In this document: piece by piece, positions 2,393-32,494 of the stretch | Layout of the letters: each line of letters starts with the position of its first letter | Numbering within the stretch: the stretch's first letter is position 1 | Assembly: GCA_963402885.1 (NCBI GenBank) | Contig: OY727097.1 | Location: 29,753,401 to 29,817,400 of the forward strand | Length of the DNA stretch: 64,000 bases | Source: Antedon bifida | Lineage: Eukaryota > Echinodermata > Crinoidea > Comatulida > Antedonidae | Direction of reading: 5' to 3' | The notes under the pieces: generated by a model | Told to the model about the DNA's origin: nothing | The model's input: only the letters and a program-made list of their open reading frames with translations | Database searches by the model: none | Position numbers and translations under genes: made by a program

Positions 2393-2554
2393 ACCGGTAG
2401 ATGCCTTAACATCGTGTCTTGTTCGAGGACTAAATACTATAACACTATCATGTTGCATTGGGCCCTTTTCATCATATTGGTCCTATCGAACAATAACAAA
2501 AAATAGAAAAGTTTATACAGTAATGAGTAACTAATAAAGGTTATGACGATTCTA

Positions 2555-2700
2555 GAGCTCTGTCCACACTATCAAACTTTATGTGACAAATAATGTGATG
2601 TGCCTATATATGGACATGATGATGTCGTATCACTACCATACATTATTTGGGCACATTACACTTTTTTTGTCAAACTAGTTTGATAGTGTAGACAGAGCTT
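2555..2700. mobile_element. M1 MITE copy
   Basis: Complete copy with both TIRs (GAGCTCTGTCCACACTATC .. GATAGTGTAGACAGAGCTT). Confidence 0.85.
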
Positions 2701-4965
2701 ATACTCTTAATTGGGTGAGAAACATTTAGGATGGTGACCCCCCTGCTACCACCACTCAACTCCCCCTCCCACCTTGAGTATATACTCGTATATACTACGA
2801 TTTGAACAACCGACACAAACCAGTATACCTTACCATTTACTCAGAAAGGAAATATACAAAAGTACATTGACTTAAGAATTGTAAAGTGTTCTTCAATATA
2901 ATTATGTTTAATGATTATGTGGCTAAGCCACAGCAGTTAGCTCTGTTCATTGACAATGACTGCCTGGTCATGTACAGCACCTGCTAGGTACAGTGTATAG
3001 CTTCACTATCCTCTCACTATCCTTTGTCCTTAGCATTTTCTCTTTATCACTATAGAAGAATTTCTTTGTCTCTGAACAAGAATGTGTAAAAATGACAGAA
3101 TACAAACTACTATTTATTGCAACTATGTAGAACTAACAACATCCAATGACTGTTTTTTATATGAATACTATAAATGAAATCAGAAATCTACAATTTGCCA
3201 TTTTCATAGCTGTATAAAACTTATAAGCACACATGGCCACCTATTGCAGTATTATTTCTTTTAATCTAGATTTAAAATATGCCAATTATGTATGTAAATA
3301 AAATGTACTGAATAAGTTAACAATTTATTACAGTATTCCTGGGCATATGTTTGACAAAGGCCTAAAAATACAATCAACACATTTCCCACAGTATTGAACA
3401 TTCATTTTTAAGAGAGAAATTAGCATAATATTATGTTTATTGTATGGACATTAATTCATTTCCCCTTTATCATATTTCTTGATCTGTCTCTGCAAAATTA
3501 TTTTTGTAACTTAAGTTCCATTACTAATAAACGAATACAAATCACGATAGTATCTAGTAAACAATGTTATCGGCCAAATGACACAGATAATTCTATTATC
3601 AAGAACTGATATTATCATTTTAGCCATGAAAATCTTTCAATAATATATTTCTATTTAGCTGTACTTATTGTTATTCTACAATATAGTACTAAAATACCTA
3701 TTGTTACTAGTGTAGAAATACCTATGGAAACACAAAAGTTCATTGACACTGTGCTTAGCACTTTGGTGTTTTTATGTTAACAAGTTTTTTCGAAAATCAC
3801 AAAATGGTCTAAAACGTCTCCAAAGTCTCAGAATTCTTGGTGTGTCGCTCAGTCACTAAATAATAAAAATGATATCAGATACTTGTGATTTTCGATAAAG
3901 ATACCTACCTCATTGGTGGGTATATAAATAAGAATGGGTAAAATAATAAAAATAAATAGTAGCTTAGTTTCTTCGCAGCCCAATACCATTCCACAAACTA
4001 AAGGTGGGTGACCATGTGAGGAGTGTGCTGATCAAAATGAGGGTAGGTCATGACCTTTCATTATAATATTCATTTTTAGTTGAAATTTAACATATTAAAC
4101 CTTGGGTATTTTAAGAGCTTATATACAGTATTACGACAACAAAGGGGGAATTTTGTGTTTTATTGAACCTAACATAACCCCTGTAGACAAAAGGTAAATA
4201 TATTCCTATCCTATACAGTAGTTGTATTCTTTAAAATTAATCGCCTGTTACCATGCTTTTATAATTAAAATATCTAGAGTACAGTTTGGCTAATCTCTCT
4301 TGTTTGGTTTTGTCTGGTGTCATCTGGGGTAAGTCCCTCCACTAAGTAAACAAAAATGACTGAATACTGTAGAAATCTGAACAATTTATATTCTTGTCAA
4401 ACTTAACCAGTATGTGTAATACAAAATAAAAATATGTTGTGTTTATTTTTTTTCATCCATTTCAAGTTATAGAGTAAAAGCAAACCCATAGTACTGTAGT
4501 ACAGTATACACTGAATAAGCACCTAAAAAGGTTATAAAATGTTTATGTTCTGTACGTCTTGGATTAAGTTACTGCTAAATTTTGATAATGAATTCAACTT
4601 TAAAAATAATATGCAACATTCATAAAAACGATGTGTCTGATATGATTACGTGAAATACATTTCCCATGCATAAAAACACAGAATACAGATTTTTCTTTCG
4701 TTTATTTGTGAAGTACAGTAATTAATAAACCAATTTTCTTGGATTTCAATACGCAAGTTCTGTAAGTATATACCTATTTACACCAAAATATTAAGAAAGA
4801 TAACTTGAAAATTGTAGGCGCTATCGTGAAACAAACAAAGTAAGTATTATATTATACTTAGCAAAACTTTTCCATGTAAAAAACCTGTTCAGTCAATTCA
4901 AGCAGTGGACTAGACCAATTTTTTTTTTCCAAATTTAGGGGGCACTTATTGGAGCAAAAGCTTAC
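2701..4965. other. No gene seen (AT-rich)
   Basis: No supported exon or repeat array; stop codons in all frames. May be AN1 intron or 3' flank. Confidence 0.4.
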
Positions 4966-20574: not shown

Positions 20575-20603
20575 TTTATTTACTTGCATTTCTAGGCTTT
20601 ATT
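20575..20603 (-). terminator. Candidate poly(A) signals of the RING-FG gene
   Basis: Minus-strand AATAAA occurs at 20598-20603 and 20575-20580, about 265-290 bp past the stop codon. If used, the 3' UTR contains the complete M1 inverted-repeat element at 20677-20789. No closer AATAAA was seen. Confidence 0.4.
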
Positions 20604-20676: not shown

Positions 20677-20789
20677 AAGCTCTGTCTACACTATCAAGTG
20701 CGTTAGTGATATGACGTCATCGTGTCCATATATGGGCACATCATATTAATATATTAGTCAGAAAAAGTTTGATAGTGTAGACAGAGCTT
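20677..20789. mobile_element. M1 MITE copy in probable 3' UTR of RING-FG gene
   Basis: Both TIRs present, internal deletion near the left arm. Flanked by TTAAGC.. / ..GCTTAA. Confidence 0.85.
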
Positions 20790-20865: not shown

Positions 20866-23800
20866 TCAAATATTTTCCTCTTCAACTTCGAACGTTTGTT
20901 CGTTTTTTCCTTCATCTTCCTCAACTTCTTTCTTAATAGATGGTACTTCAGTAGGATTCAATTTTATTATCCGTTTAGCGACTTCTACTCCTTGTGTAGA
21001 GGTGCTTTCAGAAGCTTGTTGATTTCCAGTTACAGAGGATGCTTCACATGACGCCTTACCAGCAGTAATTGATTTCTGACCACCAAATACAGAGGTGGTA
21101 CCAATTGATGTGTTGTTTCCAGAAGTAGCAGTACTAGATACTTCTTGCTTTATCAAACAACCAGAGGTTCCAGGTTTATTTTCAAAAGGAGAGTTATCTG
21201 AAGAACCTGCAGATGGACTAGAATCTGAATGACTGCCGATTAAACCAAATCCTTGGTTGGAAGTTACAGATGTTGATTTTATTCCAAATTGAGAACCGCC
21301 AGTACTGGTTTTTGAAGAACTTTCAAATACAGATGTACCAGACATTGATAGATTTTCAAATGACAAAGCTGTATCTTGTTCAGTAGGACCAAGTACATTT
21401 TCTACCGGAGAGACATTAGAAGAATGTTTGCTACCTGTTGTTACTAAATCCGTGTTGGTGGAATATTGGTTTCCAACCTTTTGAGCATCACTGATAGTTT
21501 TTGAAACACTTCCAAATTTAGAGGGAACAAATGTTGGTTGACCTCCAAATGAGAAGCGTGAAGCTGGTTCATTGCCAATGGTAGAGGTTACTGATATTTG
21601 TTGATTTCCAAATGGAGAGGGGTTGGTTGAATATTGGTTTTCAACCTTTTGAGCATCACTGCTAGTTTTTGAAACTCTTCCAAATTTGGAGGGACATATT
21701 GTTGATTGACCTCCAAATGAGAAGCCTGAAGCTGGTTTATTGCCAATGGTAGAGGTTACTGATATTTGTTGATTTCCAAATGAAGAGGTGTTGGTGGAAT
21801 ATTGGTTTTCAACCTTTTGAGCATCACTGCTAGTTTTTGAAACTCTTCCAAATTTGGAGGGACCTATTGTTGATTGACCTCCAAATGAGAAGCTTGAAGC
21901 TGGTTTATTGCCAATGGTAGAGGTTACTGATATTTGTTGATTTCCAAGTAACATAGATTGTTGGTTCCCACTACTGGTTTTAAATGCATTTCCAAATGCA
22001 GAAGGACCTATTATAGCAGATTGACTTCCAAGTCCAACCCCAGAAGATGTACTTTTACTGCCAATTGTAGAAGTTACTTTTGGTGCAGTTTGTTGGTTTT
22101 CATCGTTTAGAGTGTCACTGCTGGTGTTTGATGTATTTCCAAATCCCCTAATACGTTGTGGTTGTCCTCCAAATAAACCAGTACTTTGTGATGCTTGACT
22201 TCCAAATGGGCTAGTATTTTGTGATCGTTGATTTCCAGATAATGAAGTACTTTGTGATGGTTGATTTTGAACCATACAAGTACTTGTTGATGACAGAGTT
22301 CCAAAGACCGAAGTACCTTGTGAGGGCGGTTGACTTCCAAAAAAGGAATTGCTATGCGAGGGCCGATCACCCAATAGACTGGTACCGTGTGTTTGGCCTC
22401 CAAATGCATGCGATGCCTGACCTCCAAATGTACTAGTTCCTATTGAGGTCTGACCTCCAAATACACCAGTTCCTTGTGTTGGTGGAGCTCCAAATGCACT
22501 AGTTCCTTGTGATGCCTGGCCTCCAAAGGCACCAGTTCTTTGGGATGCATGACCTCCAAATGTATTAGTACCTAGTGAGGTCTGACCTCCAAATGCACCA
22601 GTTGCTTGTGATGTCTGACCTCCAAATGCACTAGTTCTTTGTGATGCCTGATCTCCAAATACACCAGTTCCTTGTGCTGCCTGACCTCCAAATGTAGAAG
22701 TTCCTTGTGATGTCTGACCTCCAAATGTGAAAGTTCTTTGTGATGTCTGACCTCCTAATACACCAGTTCCTTGTGATGGTTGAAATCCAAATACACCAGT
22801 TCCTTGTGATGCCTGACCTCCGAGGGTACCCATACCTTGTGATGGTTGACGTTGAACTCCAAATAAACCATTTGACTGTTGACTTCCAACCACACCAGTA
22901 CTTGCTGATGACAGACTCCCAAAGGCTGAAGTACTTTGTGAGGGTGGCTGACTTCCAAACAAGGAATTGCTATGCGAGGGCCGATCTCCCAATAGACTGG
23001 TAACGTGTGTTTGGCCTCCAAATGCATGCGATGCCTGACCTCCAAATGTACTAGTTCCTATTGAGGTCTGACCTCCAAATACACCAGTTTCTTGTGTTGT
23101 CTGAGCTCCAAATGCACTAGTTCCTTGTGATGCCTGGCTTCCAAATGCACCAGTTCTTTGGGATGCATGACCTCCAAATGTACTAGTTCCTATTGAGGTC
23201 TGACCTCCAAATACACCAGTTCCTTGTGTTGTCGGAGCTCCAAATGCACTAGTTCCTTGTGATGCCTGGCCTCCAAAGGCACCAGTTCTTTGGGATGCAT
23301 GACCTCCAAATGTATTAGTACCTAGTGAGGTCTGACCTCCAAATGCACCAGTTGCTTGTGATGCCTGACCTCCAAATTCACCAGTTCTTTGTGATGCCTG
23401 ATCCCCAAATACACCAGTGCCTTGTGCTGCCTGACCTCCAAATGTAGAAGTTCCTTGTGATGTCTGACCTCCAAATGTACTAGTTCCTATTGAGGTCTGA
23501 CCTCCAAATACACCAGTTTCTTGTGTTGTCCGAGCTCCAAATGCACTAGTTCCTTGTGATGCCTGGCTTCCAAATGCACCAGTTCTTTGGGATGCATGAC
23601 CTCCAAATGTACTAGTTCCTATTGAGGTCTGACCTCCAAATACACCAGTTCCTTGTGTTGTCGGAGCTCCAAATGCACTAGTTCCTTGTGATGCCTGGCC
23701 TCCAAAGGCACCAGTTCTTTGGGATGCATGACCTCCAAATGTATTAGTACCTAGTGAGGTCTGACCTCCAAATGCACCAGTTGCTTGTGATGCCTGACCT

Positions 23801-26800
23801 CCAAATTCACCAGTTCTTTGTGATGCCTGATCCCCAAATACACCAGTGCCTTGTGCTGCCTGACCTCCAAATGTAGAAGTTCCTTGTGATGTCTGACCTC
23901 CAAATGTGAAAGTTCTTTGTGATGTCTGACCTCTGAGGGCACCCATACCTTGTGATGGTTGACGTTGAACTCCAAATAAACTATTTGACTGCTGACTTCC
24001 AACCACACCAGTACTTGCTGATGACAGATTCCCAAAAGTCGAAGTACCTTGTGAGGGTGGTTGACTTCCGAAAAAGGAATTTGTATGTGATGGTCGAAAT
24101 AGACTAGTACTTTGTGATGTTTGACCTCTAAATCCACTGGTAACTTGTGATTGACCTCCGAATAAGCCAGTATGTTGTGATGTTTGACTTCCAGTATGTT
24201 GTGATGGCTGAATTGCAAAGGAACCTCTCCCTTGTGATGGTAAACTTCCAACTTGATCTTCAATTTCTGTTTGCTGGTTTCCAACTCCTCTAAATGATAC
24301 TTGTTGCAGATTTCCAGTAGATTGTTGGTTTCCAAAAGAAAAGCCTTGACGTTCAAACACTGCAGGTCGACCAAATTCAGATGGATTTTCTTGACTTCTA
24401 AAGACTGGTTTGTCATCTTTTAGCCGATTTCCAAAACTAAAACCATAATTGGCTTGTTGTTCAGATGCTGGAGGTGAATCATTATTTTCAACCAGAGAAG
24501 TGGGTTGATTTTTATCAGGTTTATTGTTCATATTTGTTTGTATTTCATAATTTGTAAACATGTTTTTACTGCTTTTTGATGAAATGTTTGGTTGACCGAG
24601 TGACTTTCCTTTATTTGCCATATAACAATGATAACGACACTCCTAAATGAATACAGAAAAAAGTAGTATAAATATAGAATTAATTTTTTAATTTCTAATG
24701 TAGATTGTTTTGCCACAGACATCAGTAAGGCAATTACATGGACAAGAAGAAATAAACTTACTTGTGTAAAATTACTGTAGTGGTGGTAGTGGCGATTATC
24801 ATAAATTCCTTTTTTTTAAGTAAAGGAATCTAATGTACAATACATTAAAATCACAGCAACTATTATTGTGATTCTTCTAAATTCCTTATTGAATCAATAG
24901 TAAACTTACCTCCAAACTAATGTTGCAAGTCTGAAAAAAAAATTCTTGATATTAAAGAGAAGCTTGTTGATGACGCTTTGCCAAATCCTGTCTAAAAGCA
25001 GGAAGCAACAACAAGAAAACCACCTTGCCAACACATTTTACACAAATGTCATCAAATTTTGTGACACAGACACAATATATTCACTCATGCATTACCGCAT
25101 TGAGTAACTTCAGTGAACTGCAAACGTTTTAGTGTGTTTTGTTACTAGGCAAAACAACATAACTTAACAACATATTATATAATAGATTGAAAATAAACCT
25201 TGTATAAATAAAAAAGTGCAATGAAGTTGATAATTGAAAATACTAGTTTGCTGGTATTAATACATATTTATTAAGAAAATTATTTTAAAAGTCCCTAAAA
25301 TATATTTCACAAAACACAATAGCTTTTCTGGGACAAACAAGGATAGAATGTAATGATTATTGTAGCCTTACCTCTACTTGCAAGCTGTTACAGTTACAAG
25401 CATATTGTGATGCAACACTTTCGCCTATAAAAAAACAAGACAAAATCGGACTAAAAGAAAGAACTTTGACATGTAGTATGAAATAAACTTCCAGGAATTA
25501 CATTAGGTAAAAATGAAATTTGAAAATTGAATAATTCAGCAAAGGGTAGGTTAAAAAGTCATAGGCACCTCTCCAAAAAAATAATGTAAAAAGGTATAGT
25601 AGTTATTTTATTATTATAGTTACTTCTCAGTGGTCTCAACACATTAGACAGGGACAATATCCACCAAAATAAGAATAGGCTTGGTCTTCTCTGTTGGTAA
25701 AATATTGCTAGTGAAAATATAGCATTACATTACAACTCCACTCTCAAGACTTGCAATAAGACTTTGTTTATGTAGAGCATCTTGTGTATATGTTTGTCTT
25801 GTGAACAGGATTGGCACCTTTAAGAAGGATAGTGAATGAATTCGCTTATGGTTATCCTATACAACAGCAGAAACAACAACATTTACCTGAGGGGAGTCCT
25901 GTCAACTTGAATTGCAATTCTCCCTCACTTACAAGTTCTATGTTGACTTCTTCTACAGTGTGATTGTTAATTGTGTTGTTTAGTTCTGCATATTCACTGA
26001 CAAGGTTTTGCAGTCTGCAAAATTTAAGAAAATACAGTACAGTAATACAATATGCTAAAATGTTCCTTGAACATTGAACATTGAACAGACCCAAACATTC
26101 TTGAACTTAAGCCTTGTCTACACTATCAAACTTTATGATTAAAAAATTCTCATGATCAATTTGTTCAAACATTAAACAATTACAGTATGTAAAAGTGAAC
26201 TTAACATATTTTAATGTGAACCTCAGTAAAGCTCTGTCTACACTATCAAAGTTTATAATATGTGACAAAAAAAATGTGATGTGCCCATTATATGGACATG
26301 ATGATGTCATATCACTACTATATTTAGGCACATCACAAAAGCAGCAACCATCACAATCTAGGCAATGCTTAGGTATACTATAATAGGTACTGTTGTTAAT
26401 AATTGAATAATTGTTTTAGCATTTATTGTTATTTTTTGGTATTTTATAAGGTTATCTGTGACAATTATGTGTTTGATCAAATAAAATTGGTTTAAGAGAG
26501 AGAACACATAACTAGGTACTACTATATACTTCACAAAAGTAAATTACCTTTTTTTTTTGTTTTGTATTGTTTAGATGGAAAGAAAAATGTTAATCATAAT
26601 TACAAATTAAACAGATACATAAATATAGAACCACGATCTTACTTGTTTTGCAAATCCATTGATTCAGAGATGTTCTGAAAAAAGAGTTTTTATAAGGTAT
26701 TTTCATAAATATATTTTGATAATAACCAGAAGCATAAGGTAGATAAATTTCACAATTTACAAAAAAATTGAAGTATTATGCTCAGAATTAGTTTGGACTT

Positions 26801-29178
26801 TTTACTAATAAAATACCCTGTTTACATTTCCTAGTAAAACTATGAAGTTTACATACCACGCCTCAATGGATGTAAACTCTGGAGTTACACACACATGCAA
26901 CTGGGCACACACCATACAAAACACAGGTTTTGACGTCCCAATGGATGTAAACTCTGGAGTTCTGCTAGGTGATGTGGAAAGTGTACAGATCTTACCTGTT
27001 GATTATTGGAATTGCCAGACACTATCCCATCATGCAACAACATTCTTTCCTCCAGCTCTTCCAATTTCCTGTTTAAAACATCAATAGATTGTTTGTGTGC
27101 ATCAAATTCATTACTCCTTGTTGCTATGGTTTCTTCTAACATCTTTTGTAAGCTTTCTTCTAGTGTGTCTAACCGATCCAACAGTAGACTCTTCTGACTC
27201 ACAAAATACTCCATTACATTGTGGGCCTTCATCTGTAAAAACTTCATAAACAGACAAGCAAGATTGTAAATAATATAATATAGTTTAATATATATTTATA
27301 TATTGTTATCAGGTTCAAGTTGCTATTTGTTTATTGTTTAATTTTGTATGTATCATATGTACTGTTGGGGCCCTTGTGAGACAAGCTTATGCAACTAGTG
27401 AGGACAGCCATTATCATTTGTAACTGAAGGTTGTGATGATGAATATGTACAGTAGAAAGTTATGATCATCTGATCATAGCTACACAATTGCACTTTGTAA
27501 ATGTTCTGTGCCACGATGGCATGCAGCATAGAAATCTTTATAGACAATATGCAATAAACAATTTTGTTTCAGTGACAGAGAAAGTGTTAATAAAGGAAAG
27601 GAATTAACATAAATGCTATGTATATTTTATATGCAAATGACAATAAATGGAAGTAATCTTCCACTGATTGAATGTATAAATTTTAAACATTTTATAAGTA
27701 CTGTATTACTTTTATTTTAAATTCATATTTACCTCCATTTGTTTTGATTTTCTTGTTTTCAGAACGAGTTTTGAAAAATCCTTACTTGAATTTAAAACAT
27801 CAACCATAGAGGAACTACTGCTCTTAAAAATGTAAGAAAAAAAAATTCAATGTTATAGTTGGTGGACAGTTTATACAATTTCCTGATGGTAAGAAAATGA
27901 AAACGGCCAACGCCTACTAAACACACCCAATTTTTTCTTCATACTTGACTTCTGCAAGTCAGCTTGTCAAACCATAAAACATCTCTATGGTCAGTAAAAG
28001 ACAATGGTGAATATAGCTGGCCTAACCCTTGTACTCAAGATGATGTTTAGTTAGACTGGATAAGTGACACCATTAACAATGAACCACTTTACAAAGATAC
28101 TAACCTTTGTTGTCATCTTTCCAGATATATTTTGATGACGTTTAACAGGCATCTCTGCATTTTCAATTTTAACATTTTCATTTACGCTTGAACGACCTTG
28201 GACATCAGTAGTAGAATCCTAGAACAAATGTTCAATAAAAAAAAGATCAATCAGTCAATAATTTATTTATTGTCAGAAAAACATGAAAGGCAAGAGGAGT
28301 TAAAAAATACTTGATTGCTCTAGTCTAGTTTACATAATAGAGAAAATACAGAATGAATTCTTAAATGTTACTTTATTGTACTAAATAAGTCTCATACAGA
28401 ACCATAATCTCTGTCTACACTATCAAACTACTGTAGTTTAAAAAAAAGCATGATGTGCCCTAATATGGTAGTGATATGACATCAGCGTTTCCATATATGG
28501 GCACATCACATTTTTTGTCTCATAAAGTTTGATAGTGTAGACAGAGCTATTGTTTAGTTATTTTTAGAACTATGATTACCTGTGATGCTTGTTGATGAGT
28601 TAAGATGGAAGGGGAATCTTTAGTTGGAAAACTCTCTAGTTTATCCCTTAGTGGCACCTTAGATTCTAGTAAAAACAACGCAAATATTAAAGTAAAATTA
28701 TATTGGGACAATATACAATGTCCTTATGTACACTTTTTTCAGTTCCTCTTGCCCACACACTTGATCCACCCCTGTCTTGTCCACTGCCAAGGTCGTAAAA
28801 CTATTAATATGTACTGAATAGTAATAGAGCCCTATTCACCAGGCAGGACAATAAAGTCTCCCATGATTAGGGGTTGCCCATATGAGTTCTGATCTGTAGT
28901 ATGATCATTATTATTTTCAAATACATCATCTTACTTGTTGTTGGTGCCTCGAAGATGTCTGTTATAACTTTAAATGTCAAGTCAAACCCATCCTGTGTTT
29001 TTGTCGATTTGTTGCATTTTGGACATGCAAATGAACTATCTTTAGCTGTAGACTTCCTTAACAGTTGTTTGCTGCAAACCTTGTCCAATGCACATTTTCG
29101 GCAGATGCTGTGACAGCAACTAAGGATGATGGAGGCACTGTTGGATCCGAAACATACACTGCATGTGATAACTTTCAT
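20866..29178 (-). CDS. RING finger - coiled coil - FG-repeat protein (10 coding exons, 1593 aa)
   Basis: Coding exons, 5' to 3': 28935-29178, 28580-28665, 28105-28218, 27733-27822, 26996-27232, 26643-26674, 25887-26014, 25372-25424, 24910-24930, 20866-24642. All have AG/GT borders, every phase matches, and they sum to 4,782 nt including TGA. Residues 6-55 form a C3HC4 RING: C6,C9,C21,H23,C26,C29,C52,C55. Next come a Ser-rich/charged linker (about 82-178), a coiled coil (about 180-290, with many L/E/K heptads), and a Cys-rich linker (about 319-342: ACNC, TC, EC, HC). The last exon then gives a G/S/T/Q-rich FG domain (about 400-1450) and an acidic tail with two psi-K-x-E SUMO-type motifs (IKQE, IKKE). 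No B-box or SPRY domain is seen, so it is not a standard TRIM. RING domains recruit ubiquitin E2s; FG repeats bind transport receptors and form nuclear-pore phases. A nuclear-pore or condensate-linked E3 is an inference. The 21- and 32-bp microexons make automatic gene models likely to miss the RING-FG connection. Confidence 0.85.
21455..21960 (-). repeat. 168-bp (56-residue) coding repeat, 3 copies, C-terminal to the FG array
   Basis: Three tandem copies of a 168-bp unit (anchor CCAATGGTAG at 21575, 21743 and 21911) encode a second FG repeat type: SxFGNQQISVTSTIGN, then SFGGQ, then SKFGRVSKTSSDAQKV. It carries more charge than the 11-residue array, so the FG domain has two compositionally distinct zones. 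Confidence 0.85.
22130..24190 (-). repeat. FG-repeat coding array, 11-residue unit (33 bp), with 429-bp higher-order duplication
   Basis: Inside the last exon of the RING-FG gene the reading frame consists of 11-residue units of the form FGGQTSQGTSA, with the FG dipeptide invariant and charged residues rare. A block of 13 units is duplicated almost exactly: the segment beginning near 23042 recurs near 23471 (429 bp = 13 x 33). A larger cassette with a Q-x-S/P-rich spacer (SLFGxQPPSQ, QSNSLFGVQRQPSQ) recurs near 22340, 22960 and 24050. Low divergence between copies indicates recent unequal exchange. Confidence 0.85.
25731..25828 (+). mobile_element. 5'-truncated SINE body in intron of RING-FG gene
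   Basis: Matches the reverse complement of 54090-54170 almost base for base, without the tRNA head. Confidence 0.75.
26107..26340. mobile_element. Composite M1-derived element in intron of RING-FG gene
   Basis: A lone M1 left end (26107-26128) is followed by ~100 bp (26129-26226) that is the reverse complement of 14965-15065. A 3'-truncated M1 copy (26229-26340) follows. It lies between coding exons 26014 and 26643. Confidence 0.75.
28408..28548. mobile_element. M1 MITE copy in intron of RING-FG gene
   Basis: Both TIRs present (TCTCTGTCTACACTATCAA .. GATAGTGTAGACAGAGCT), between exons 28218 and 28580. The right end is only ~30 bp from the donor of exon 28580-28665. Confidence 0.85.
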
Positions 29179-29191
29179 ATTCAACCGGAGT

Positions 29192-29700
29192 CTGGAATAA
29201 CAAACAGCTATCAAAATAATACATTAATTAAAGAAAAGTTGAATAAAATCAAAATATTATAATTATAAAATACCACGGCACCACAATAACAAGTACAAGG
29301 AAGGTCTAGGGCTAGGGGACAGCACTCGCCCTTCTTTCTACTAGGCTAGGCCTAGTACTTATAGTAGTAGAGAGGGCCAGGCTAGCTAGTAAGTAGAGCC
29401 TAGAATTAGATAACAGGCCTAATAGAATTTTAATAGGTTAGGGCCTAGGCTAGGCCTTTAGGCCTAGAGTAGGCCTAGATTATTAAGATAGTGGGTAGGA
29501 GGGCTGGTGGAGCTCACCCCTCTCTAAAGTGAAATGCATAACTGATGATTTAGCTGGACCAAACAACAGCATTGTATTATACTTACTATATGCTAGGTCG
29601 GTCAAAAGCGTAAAATATAAACACCACTCTCATAGGAAACAATAAAAAACAACAAGGCCTAGGCTAAGCACATCTCCTTGGCCTTCTAAGATAGTAAAAC
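29192..29700 (-). promoter_or_regulatory. Probable 5' UTR exon and intron of the RING-FG gene
   Basis: The coding exon begins at an acceptor (TTATTCCAG, exon base 29191), so a noncoding first exon is needed. A strong minus-strand donor (ATATA|GTAAGTATAA) lies at 29585-29586, which would put the leader exon at 29587 to roughly 29700 and the first intron at 29192-29586. The intron carries a dense cluster of TAGGCCTAG motifs (29330-29480). The transcription start is not visible. Confidence 0.45.
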
Positions 29701-31777: not shown

Positions 31778-31855
31778 AGCGATAGCCAAGCTTACAGGAA
31801 AGGTGTCTGAAAAAAAAAATAACAAAAGTATATCTTCGATATTTTCGTAATTAAA

Positions 31856-32494
31856 ATGGTTGGTTTTAACAAGAATAAGGAAAATCTTCTTTCTATCTTC
31901 GACATGGCAAATTCTTTACCTTCATCTGTTATGTTACAACCAGGAGCTGAGCTGAAAAGTGGAACTTTGTATCTCCACGTTGGACACAGACGTCAACGGA
32001 TGCTGGCGAAAGTGTACGCCAACACGTTAGATCCTCTTGTTGTTTTCTACCCAGACAAAGTACATTGTAAACATTGTGGATTGATGCGGTTAAGAAGTTG
32101 TACAATTACTGCTCTTCCAGGGGAGAGGGACTTCCTTGTCTCCCCAAAGAAAACAGACGATGGCAAAGCTATGGTGTTTTCGGCTGATTCTGCCGCGGAA
32201 AGAAACTCTTGGGTAAAAGCATTGTCATCTTACGAGGACAATTTGGGGAAAAAGATTGCATCTCTTCGCACCAGAAGGATGCCATCTTTAAATGAATCGT
32301 TAGAAGAGGATGAGGAAGCAGATGATAGTTCAAGGCAGGATGACAGGTTTAACATTCCCTCCAGAAGAACATCAAGACGTCCATCAACCGAGTTTGTTCG
32401 GCGGCGGAGATTCGTCGATCAGGAAAGGAAAATATTTGGTATTCAAAAGCAAAATTGTTGGAACACGGACAGACGTTCACAAGTCTGTAATTAA
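31856..32494 (+). CDS. PH-domain protein, intronless, 212 aa
   Basis: A single open exon preceded by a good promoter and followed by a 3' UTR with a poly(A) signal. Residues about 33-125 look like a pleckstrin-homology domain: an opening strand KSGTLYL, beta strands through LVVFYPDK, a typical closing segment VFSADSAAERNSWVKAL, and the conserved Trp at residue 119 in the C-terminal helix. Residues 144-160 are acidic. The tail is Arg-rich with repeated basophilic-kinase sites (RRMPS, RRTS, RRPS) that could also bind 14-3-3. PH domains usually bind phosphoinositides or protein partners. The small intronless layout recalls PHLDA-type genes, but orthology is not claimed. An alternative frame (32310-32549) is a shadow. 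An earlier start is excluded by stop codons upstream. Confidence 0.8.
   Translation: MVGFNKNKENLLSIFDMANSLPSSVMLQPGAELKSGTLYLHVGHRRQRMLAKVYANTLDPLVVFYPDKVHCKHCGLMRLRSCTITALPGERDFLVSPKKTDDGKAMVFSADSAAERNSWVKALSSYEDNLGKKIASLRTRRMPSLNESLEEDEEADDSSRQDDRFNIPSRRTSRRPSTEFVRRRRFVDQERKIFGIQKQNCWNTDRRSQVCN

Follow-up and report, generated by a model that had tools for sequence, protein, structure and literature searches.

Introduction

Several described proteins already combine FG repeats with an enzymatic function in a single chain. The Vasa-class helicases GLH-1/2/4 of C. elegans, together with RDE-12 and DDX-19, are enzymes with FG tails that are not nucleoporins (PMC8311347, excerpt), and the co-clustering of nuclear pores and P granules depends on the FG repeats of GLH-1 (PMC12050070, excerpt). 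RanBP2 is an FG nucleoporin with SUMO E3 activity (PMC4866044, excerpt).

Here, we describe a gene on contig C10 of the crinoid Antedon bifida (assembly of 315.6 Mb in 27 contigs) that lies within a 64,000-nucleotide stretch of DNA, hereafter the window, and is predicted to encode an N-terminal RING, a coiled coil, and a long FG-rich tail. The pairing of a RING and an FG array in one protein looks unusual, and among the matches listed in a search restricted to open-licence papers, none describes a RING-FG protein in its title or the start of its abstract. The earlier note on this DNA had argued for novelty on the grounds that FG nucleoporins lack RINGs and TRIM proteins lack FG arrays, which overstated the case by leaving out the FG-tailed helicases and the SUMO E3 RanBP2. 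Since FG tails on enzymes have been described before, as has an FG nucleoporin with E3 activity, we regard the pairing as a variation on a known theme.

Our preferred reading, held tentatively, is that one intact crinoid gene specifies a dimeric RING E3 concentrated by its FG tail in FG-rich condensates at the pore or nuage. The RING would recruit an E2 for ubiquitin (or SUMO), dimerisation of the ligase would fall to the coiled coil, and the ~1,250-residue low-charge tail would serve as a cohesive or karyopherin-binding tether. Such a tether would concentrate the ligase in the nuclear-pore barrier or in perinuclear germ granules (nuage), inside which it would modify local proteins.

Predicted exon structure of the RING-FG gene

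The gene model consists of ten minus-strand coding exons running from 29178 to 20866, which join in frame to give 1,593 codons and a TGA stop, with GT-AG borders at nine of nine introns. This reproduces the chain of ten exons with consensus borders and consistent phases proposed in the earlier note. Its features are as follows.

29192..29193, minus strand: AG ahead of the ATG that may be the acceptor of an intron in the 5′ UTR, a consensus match only
28935..29178, minus strand: exon 1, with the start ATG (29178-29176) and the entire C3HC4 RING (aa 6-55 = 29163-29014)
28580..28665, minus strand: exon 2, linker
28105..28218, minus strand: exon 3, linker, with VKIE (aa 126-129), a psi-K-x-E SUMO-site-like motif
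27733..27822, minus strand: exon 4, linker; among the acceptors examined, the frame is kept with 27822 as the first exon base, after AG
26996..27232, minus strand: exon 5, putative coiled coil (aa 183-250 = 27220-27017)
26643..26674, minus strand: exon 6, 32 nt
25887..26014, minus strand: exon 7, into which the coil possibly continues
25372..25424, minus strand: exon 8, 53 nt, with C320 and C322; the FG frame depends on it whenever exon 7 is included
24910..24930, minus strand: exon 9, a 21-nt symmetric microexon with C330
20866..24642, minus strand: exon 10, 1,258 codons, with C337, H340, and C341 before an internal ATG at 24621, 67 FG dipeptides, and the stop TGA (20868-20866)
20598..20603, minus strand: AATAAA, a possible poly(A) signal, 263 nt past the stop

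The AATAAA is a weak sign, since this hexamer occurs 22 times on the minus strand between 20000 and 30000. In the same interval, a generic splice-site matrix ranks the nine donors between 1 and 27 of 593 GT dinucleotides and the nine acceptors between 1 and 44 of 630 AG dinucleotides. We scored codon usage with a model built on 2,568 codons of four ORFs elsewhere in this genome, of which three look TRIM-like and one kinase-like by eye. The larger exons 1, 3, 5, 7, and 10 score as coding, with +14.2, +12.9, +12.3, +8.3, and +246.5 bits, respectively. Open intron windows score at most −11.0 (80 codons), −11.4 (78 codons), +2.2 (42 codons), and +1.2 bits (38 codons), and short ones reach +8.3 (29 codons) and +8.5 bits (18 codons). 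The small exons 2, 4, 6, 8, and 9 score between −1.5 and +1.7 bits and are indistinguishable from intron by codon usage; because intron windows of like length score as high, it is splice sites and phase that define these five exons.

Composition and repeat structure of the FG tail

In the gene model, the FG domain lies on the same chain as the RING, as the earlier note proposed. Exon 10 encodes 67 of the 68 FG dipeptides of the protein, the remaining one lying in the RING, and the density peaks at 19 per 200 aa. Only three dipeptides occur as GLFG, and FG is mostly 11-aa periodic. Between aa 380 and 1410, the tail contains 7.5% charged residues and 29% S/T. Its density lies above the threshold of at least 5 FG in 200 aa used in PMC8311347 (excerpt), and none of the human FG nucleoporins listed there has a higher FG content, with 44 FG in NUP214 and 41 in NUP98, each with up to 19 per 200 aa. 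Scanned as a whole, exon 10 gives no match to Pfam's model of nucleoporin FG repeats; of three exon 10 pieces, one matches it at E 0.91, with 10.9 bits versus a cut-off of 32.2. A genome search with the same model lists none of the Nup98 FG exons of this genome, so the model appears insensitive here. Pfam matches no nucleoporin anchoring domain in the N-terminal 352 aa, the whole of exon 10, or its three pieces.

Two tandem repeats lie in the exon.

22412..23933, minus strand: FG minisatellite with a 33-bp (11-aa) unit, in higher-order copies of 143 aa that share 97.1% identity
21454..21947, minus strand: 168-bp repeat, 2.9 copies, within the FG exon, 95% matches

A large part of the FG density comes from the recent 33-bp minisatellite, a point missing from the earlier note. 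Across 39 in-register units, 21 of them distinct, T8 is kept in 39/39, G in 38/39, and F in 36/39, with the next-best positions at 31/39; FG was not required in each unit, and the blocks themselves were placed by FG register. Distinct variants account for 10 of 27 possible synonymous and 28 of 72 possible non-synonymous changes, so the array as a whole appears to be without purifying selection. For its FG codons alone, the corresponding values are 2/4 and 3/14, and the 143-aa copies differ by two synonymous and nine non-synonymous codon changes.

FG is also enriched outside the array. Residues 336-557 contain six FG versus 1.7 expected (61/20,000 shuffles), and residues 1116-1593 contain 15 versus 2.7 expected (0/20,000). 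Eight of these 15 fall in the threefold 168-bp repeat, where 1.3 are expected and the copies are not independent, while residues 1116-1240 hold four versus 0.64 expected (17/20,000) and residues 1411-1593 hold three versus 0.73 (504/20,000). GF, with the two residues in reverse order, shows no such excess: its count in aa 336-557 is reached by 1,218/5,000 shuffles, and that in aa 1116-1593 by 2,512/5,000.

The recent higher-order duplications of the array and the lack of overall purifying selection on its units would fit a different account of the same single protein, in which a fast-evolving minisatellite tail lets the ligase self-associate in bodies of its own, with no special tie to pore or nuage. 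That account could also appeal to another expanded minisatellite ORF in the genome (L037) and to FG-rich proteins known outside the pore, such as trophinin and filaggrin-2 (PMC8311347, excerpt). It accounts less readily for the excess of FG in aa 336-557 and 1116-1240, beyond the arrays, for the stronger preservation of T, G, and F than of any other residue in the array unit, and for a nucleoporin-like composition low in charge and rich in S/T/Q/G. We regard it as the strongest competitor of an FG-tethered ligase at pore or nuage, though on the unlikely side.

The RING head and the coiled coil

All eight zinc ligands of the C3HC4 RING assigned to residues 6-55 are present (C6-C9-C21-H23-C26-C29-C52-C55), the CPxC context is intact, and the ligand spacing is 11 residues for C2-C3 and 22 for C6-C7. 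The best Pfam match of the head is the RING family PF24921 (E 4.3e-6, 27.1 bits, under a 50-bit cut-off), and zf-RING_5 reaches 10.6 bits versus a cut-off of 27.9. The three best PDB matches in phmmer are TRIM RINGs (TRIM34, TRIM72) and are weak, at E 0.07-0.11. A TRIM-like label fits the RING, but no B-box accompanies it: Pfam matches none, and cysteine is missing throughout residues 56-319.

Searching the genome with the RING-coil part gave 17 candidates, all of which were scored, and no second copy was found in the 315.6 Mb. Six matches besides the gene's own exons have E values from 0.065 to 3.5, and the four that were inspected all lie in ORFs judged TRIM-like by eye. The nearest of these, L033, matches at 42% over aa 2-64 and has the same 11-residue C2-C3 spacing; its core reads IILTCLHSFC versus IILSCCHSIC in the RING-FG protein, the TRIM-like label again being assigned by eye.

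The coiled coil, previously drawn at about residues 180-290, is supported by heptad periodicity over aa 183-250 (reached by 77/5,000 shuffles) and over aa 183-300 (17/5,000), but aa 255-300 alone are not significant (1,025/5,000). A predicted coil would therefore span about aa 183-250, perhaps continuing to 300.

The linchpin position, next to the final cysteine of the RING, is usually Arg but here is Asn56. This non-canonical residue and the weak family matches would suit a structural, non-catalytic RING, making the protein an FG scaffold and in effect a lineage-specific nucleoporin. Since none of the eight ligands is missing, the CPxC context is intact, and RINGs without Arg at this position can be active, we consider such a scaffold improbable.

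Three psi-K-x-E SUMO-consensus-like sites occur in the protein, at aa 126-129, 1499-1502, and 1571-1574. Two of them are near the end of the tail, and the motif is short enough to arise by chance.

Continuity between the RING and FG parts

The junction between the two halves of the protein encodes a cluster of Cys and His residues.

25372-25424, 24910-24930, and 24642-24625, minus strand: Cys/His cluster, aa 320-341, in three small coding pieces

The cluster consists of C320, C322, C330, C337, H340, and C341, arranged as C-x-C-x7-C-x6-C-x2-H-C. It spans exons 8 and 9 and the seven exon 10 codons that precede the ATG at 24621, and it is therefore divided if the locus holds two adjacent genes or transcripts, one for a RING/coiled-coil protein and one for a separate FG protein starting at that ATG. 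Such a division is suggested by the position of the ATG, in frame at base 22 of exon 10, and by the small size of exons 6, 8, and 9, which have no coding signal of their own. Against it, a strong acceptor (rank 5 of 630) marks the very start of the exon 10 open frame, and the TAG of this acceptor itself supplies the stop that precedes the FG frame. The acceptor of exon 8 ranks 1 of 630 and its donor 3 of 593, and the donor of exon 9 ranks 1 of 593. The FG frame is kept when exon 5, 8, or 9 joins exon 10. It would be lost only if exon 7 were used and exon 8 skipped, since both other frames of exon 10 stop early. Even if exons 6-9 were skipped, the product would retain the RING, coil, and FG tail, since exon 5 ends in phase 0 and could join exon 10 in frame. 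Splice ranks, phase, and the Cys/His cluster all favour one gene, as first proposed, over a separate FG gene, which we judge improbable.

The ends of exons 8 and 9 encode similar peptides (CNSLQVE and CNISLE), possibly reflecting an exon duplication.

Comparison with known protein families

The RING-FG protein resembles TRIM (RBCC) proteins, such as the TRIM-like ORFs of this genome, in having a RING followed by a coiled coil, with the 11-residue C2-C3 spacing also seen in L033. It differs in lacking a B-box and in carrying an FG tail at the place of the C-terminal domains, which in TRIM proteins are NHL, SPRY, or others. Of the TRIM hallmarks, the RING and coiled coil are thus present and the B-box is absent. 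As a candidate RING E3, it has the eight zinc ligands and no profile match above a curated cut-off. The extreme N-terminal position of the RING also brought the Zip3/RNF212 family into consideration. Zip3/RNF212/HEI10 meiotic RINGs are N-terminal, with about 14 residues between C2 and C3 and a short C6-C7 loop; the spacings found here are 11 and 22 residues, and on these spacings and the TRIM RING similarity we tentatively put this assignment aside.

The tail is comparable with those of the FG nucleoporins Nup98, Nup214, and Nup153 in FG number and density, low charge, and S/T/Q/G-rich spacers. The protein differs from them in its N-terminal RING and coil, its mostly 11-aa periodic FG, and the lack of a matched pore-anchoring domain, and its Pfam FG match stays below the cut-off. 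RanBP2/Nup358 is the closest parallel for E3 activity and FG repeats in one chain, the E3 activity being predicted in the crinoid protein; to our knowledge, the catalytic region of RanBP2 is not a RING. GLH-1/2/4 likewise unite FG repeats and an enzyme domain in one protein, that domain being a DEAD-box helicase and not a RING, and the FG repeats of GLH-1 provide the closest working analogue of the role proposed for the tail.

A single-gene architecture of RING, coiled coil, and FG tail is well supported at the sequence level, where the gene model, RING ligands, heptad periodicity, and FG enrichment are seen directly and no second copy was found. In weighing the FG-tethered ligase as a whole, we count in its favour the good splice sites, the coding bias of the larger exons, the complete RING ligands and RING-family matches, the high FG content and low charge of the tail, the FG enrichment outside the array, and the well-kept F and G inside it; we count against it the FG model match below the cut-off, the apparent lack of overall purifying selection on the array, the minisatellite ORF L037, and Asn56. 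We infer that the gene would be transcribed as one mRNA and that its product would act as an E3, dimerise, partition into an FG phase, and have substrates there, and a pore function can only be conjectured. A lineage-specific soluble or pore-resident E3 that enters the pore barrier or nuage via its own FG repeats and modifies cargo, nucleoporins, or incoming foreign particles is conceivable, though less likely than not.

If the preferred reading is true, nature would have fitted a ubiquitin ligase with its own permeability-barrier tag, and FG domains would have been joined to unrelated enzymes more than once, in nematode helicases and in the RING protein described here. The protein would also make it possible to ask directly whether cohesion between FG repeats is sufficient to target an enzyme to pores or nuage.

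Genomic context

The mitochondrial contig of the assembly (15,844 bp) has a T-rich major coding strand (47% T) and, with genes identified by eye, carries nad4L between nad4 and nad5, the crinoid arrangement. This agrees with a crinoid source: PMC7687491 reports 15,878 bp and 47.8% T, and cites the placement of nad4L as peculiar to crinoids.

The Nup98 and Nup153 domains are encoded elsewhere in the genome. A Nup98 domain lies at C10:25.17 Mb (two matches, both above the curated cut-off), with FG and GLFG exons ~12-16 kb ahead of it on the same strand that we take as Nup98's own, and a Nup153 domain lies at C15:3.72 Mb (two of three matches above the cut-off). With those domains at their own loci, the RING-FG gene represents an additional FG protein, and we rejected the possibility that it is a diverged Nup98 or Nup153. 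Nup214 gives four matches, all below the cut-off, at two places on C8. These Nup214/Nup159 beta-propeller matches, at C8:1903935-1905771 and C8:1979347-1981915, are ~75 kb apart with similar scores and may represent a duplicated gene or an assembly duplication.

A genome search with the FG exon gave 20 matches at E ≤ 1, including the exon itself and its own opposite strand; no paralogue was found among them. The strongest other match, on C9 (E 2.6e-14, 32% identity), has 21 internal stops and was rejected, and two loci that were inspected, L032 and L037, the latter among these matches, proved to be other tandem repeats. In L037 (C16:12821000-12828000), an open frame of 714 codons at 2441-4582 is mainly a tandem array of the 11-aa unit GHYGNTAPTGI, and further frames are open as well. 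As read from its sequence, at least one other long minisatellite of coding length exists in this genome, which is a caution for the FG array. Among viral contigs, none of six pattern matches was confirmed as a relative.

The end of a MITE-like inverted-repeat element, CTGTCTACACTATCAAA, has 28 matches in the window with at most two mismatches, versus 0.02 expected. Eight facing pairs have starts 86-139 bases apart, and the element is found within two introns of the RING-FG gene and in its 3′ flank as well as at many other places in the window, for example at 20682-20784, 26114-26250, and 28411-28544. On the plus strand, a divergent neighbouring ORF at 31823-32491, ~2.6 kb from the RING-FG start codon, encodes a PH domain (PF00169, E 6.3e-6, above the cut-off).
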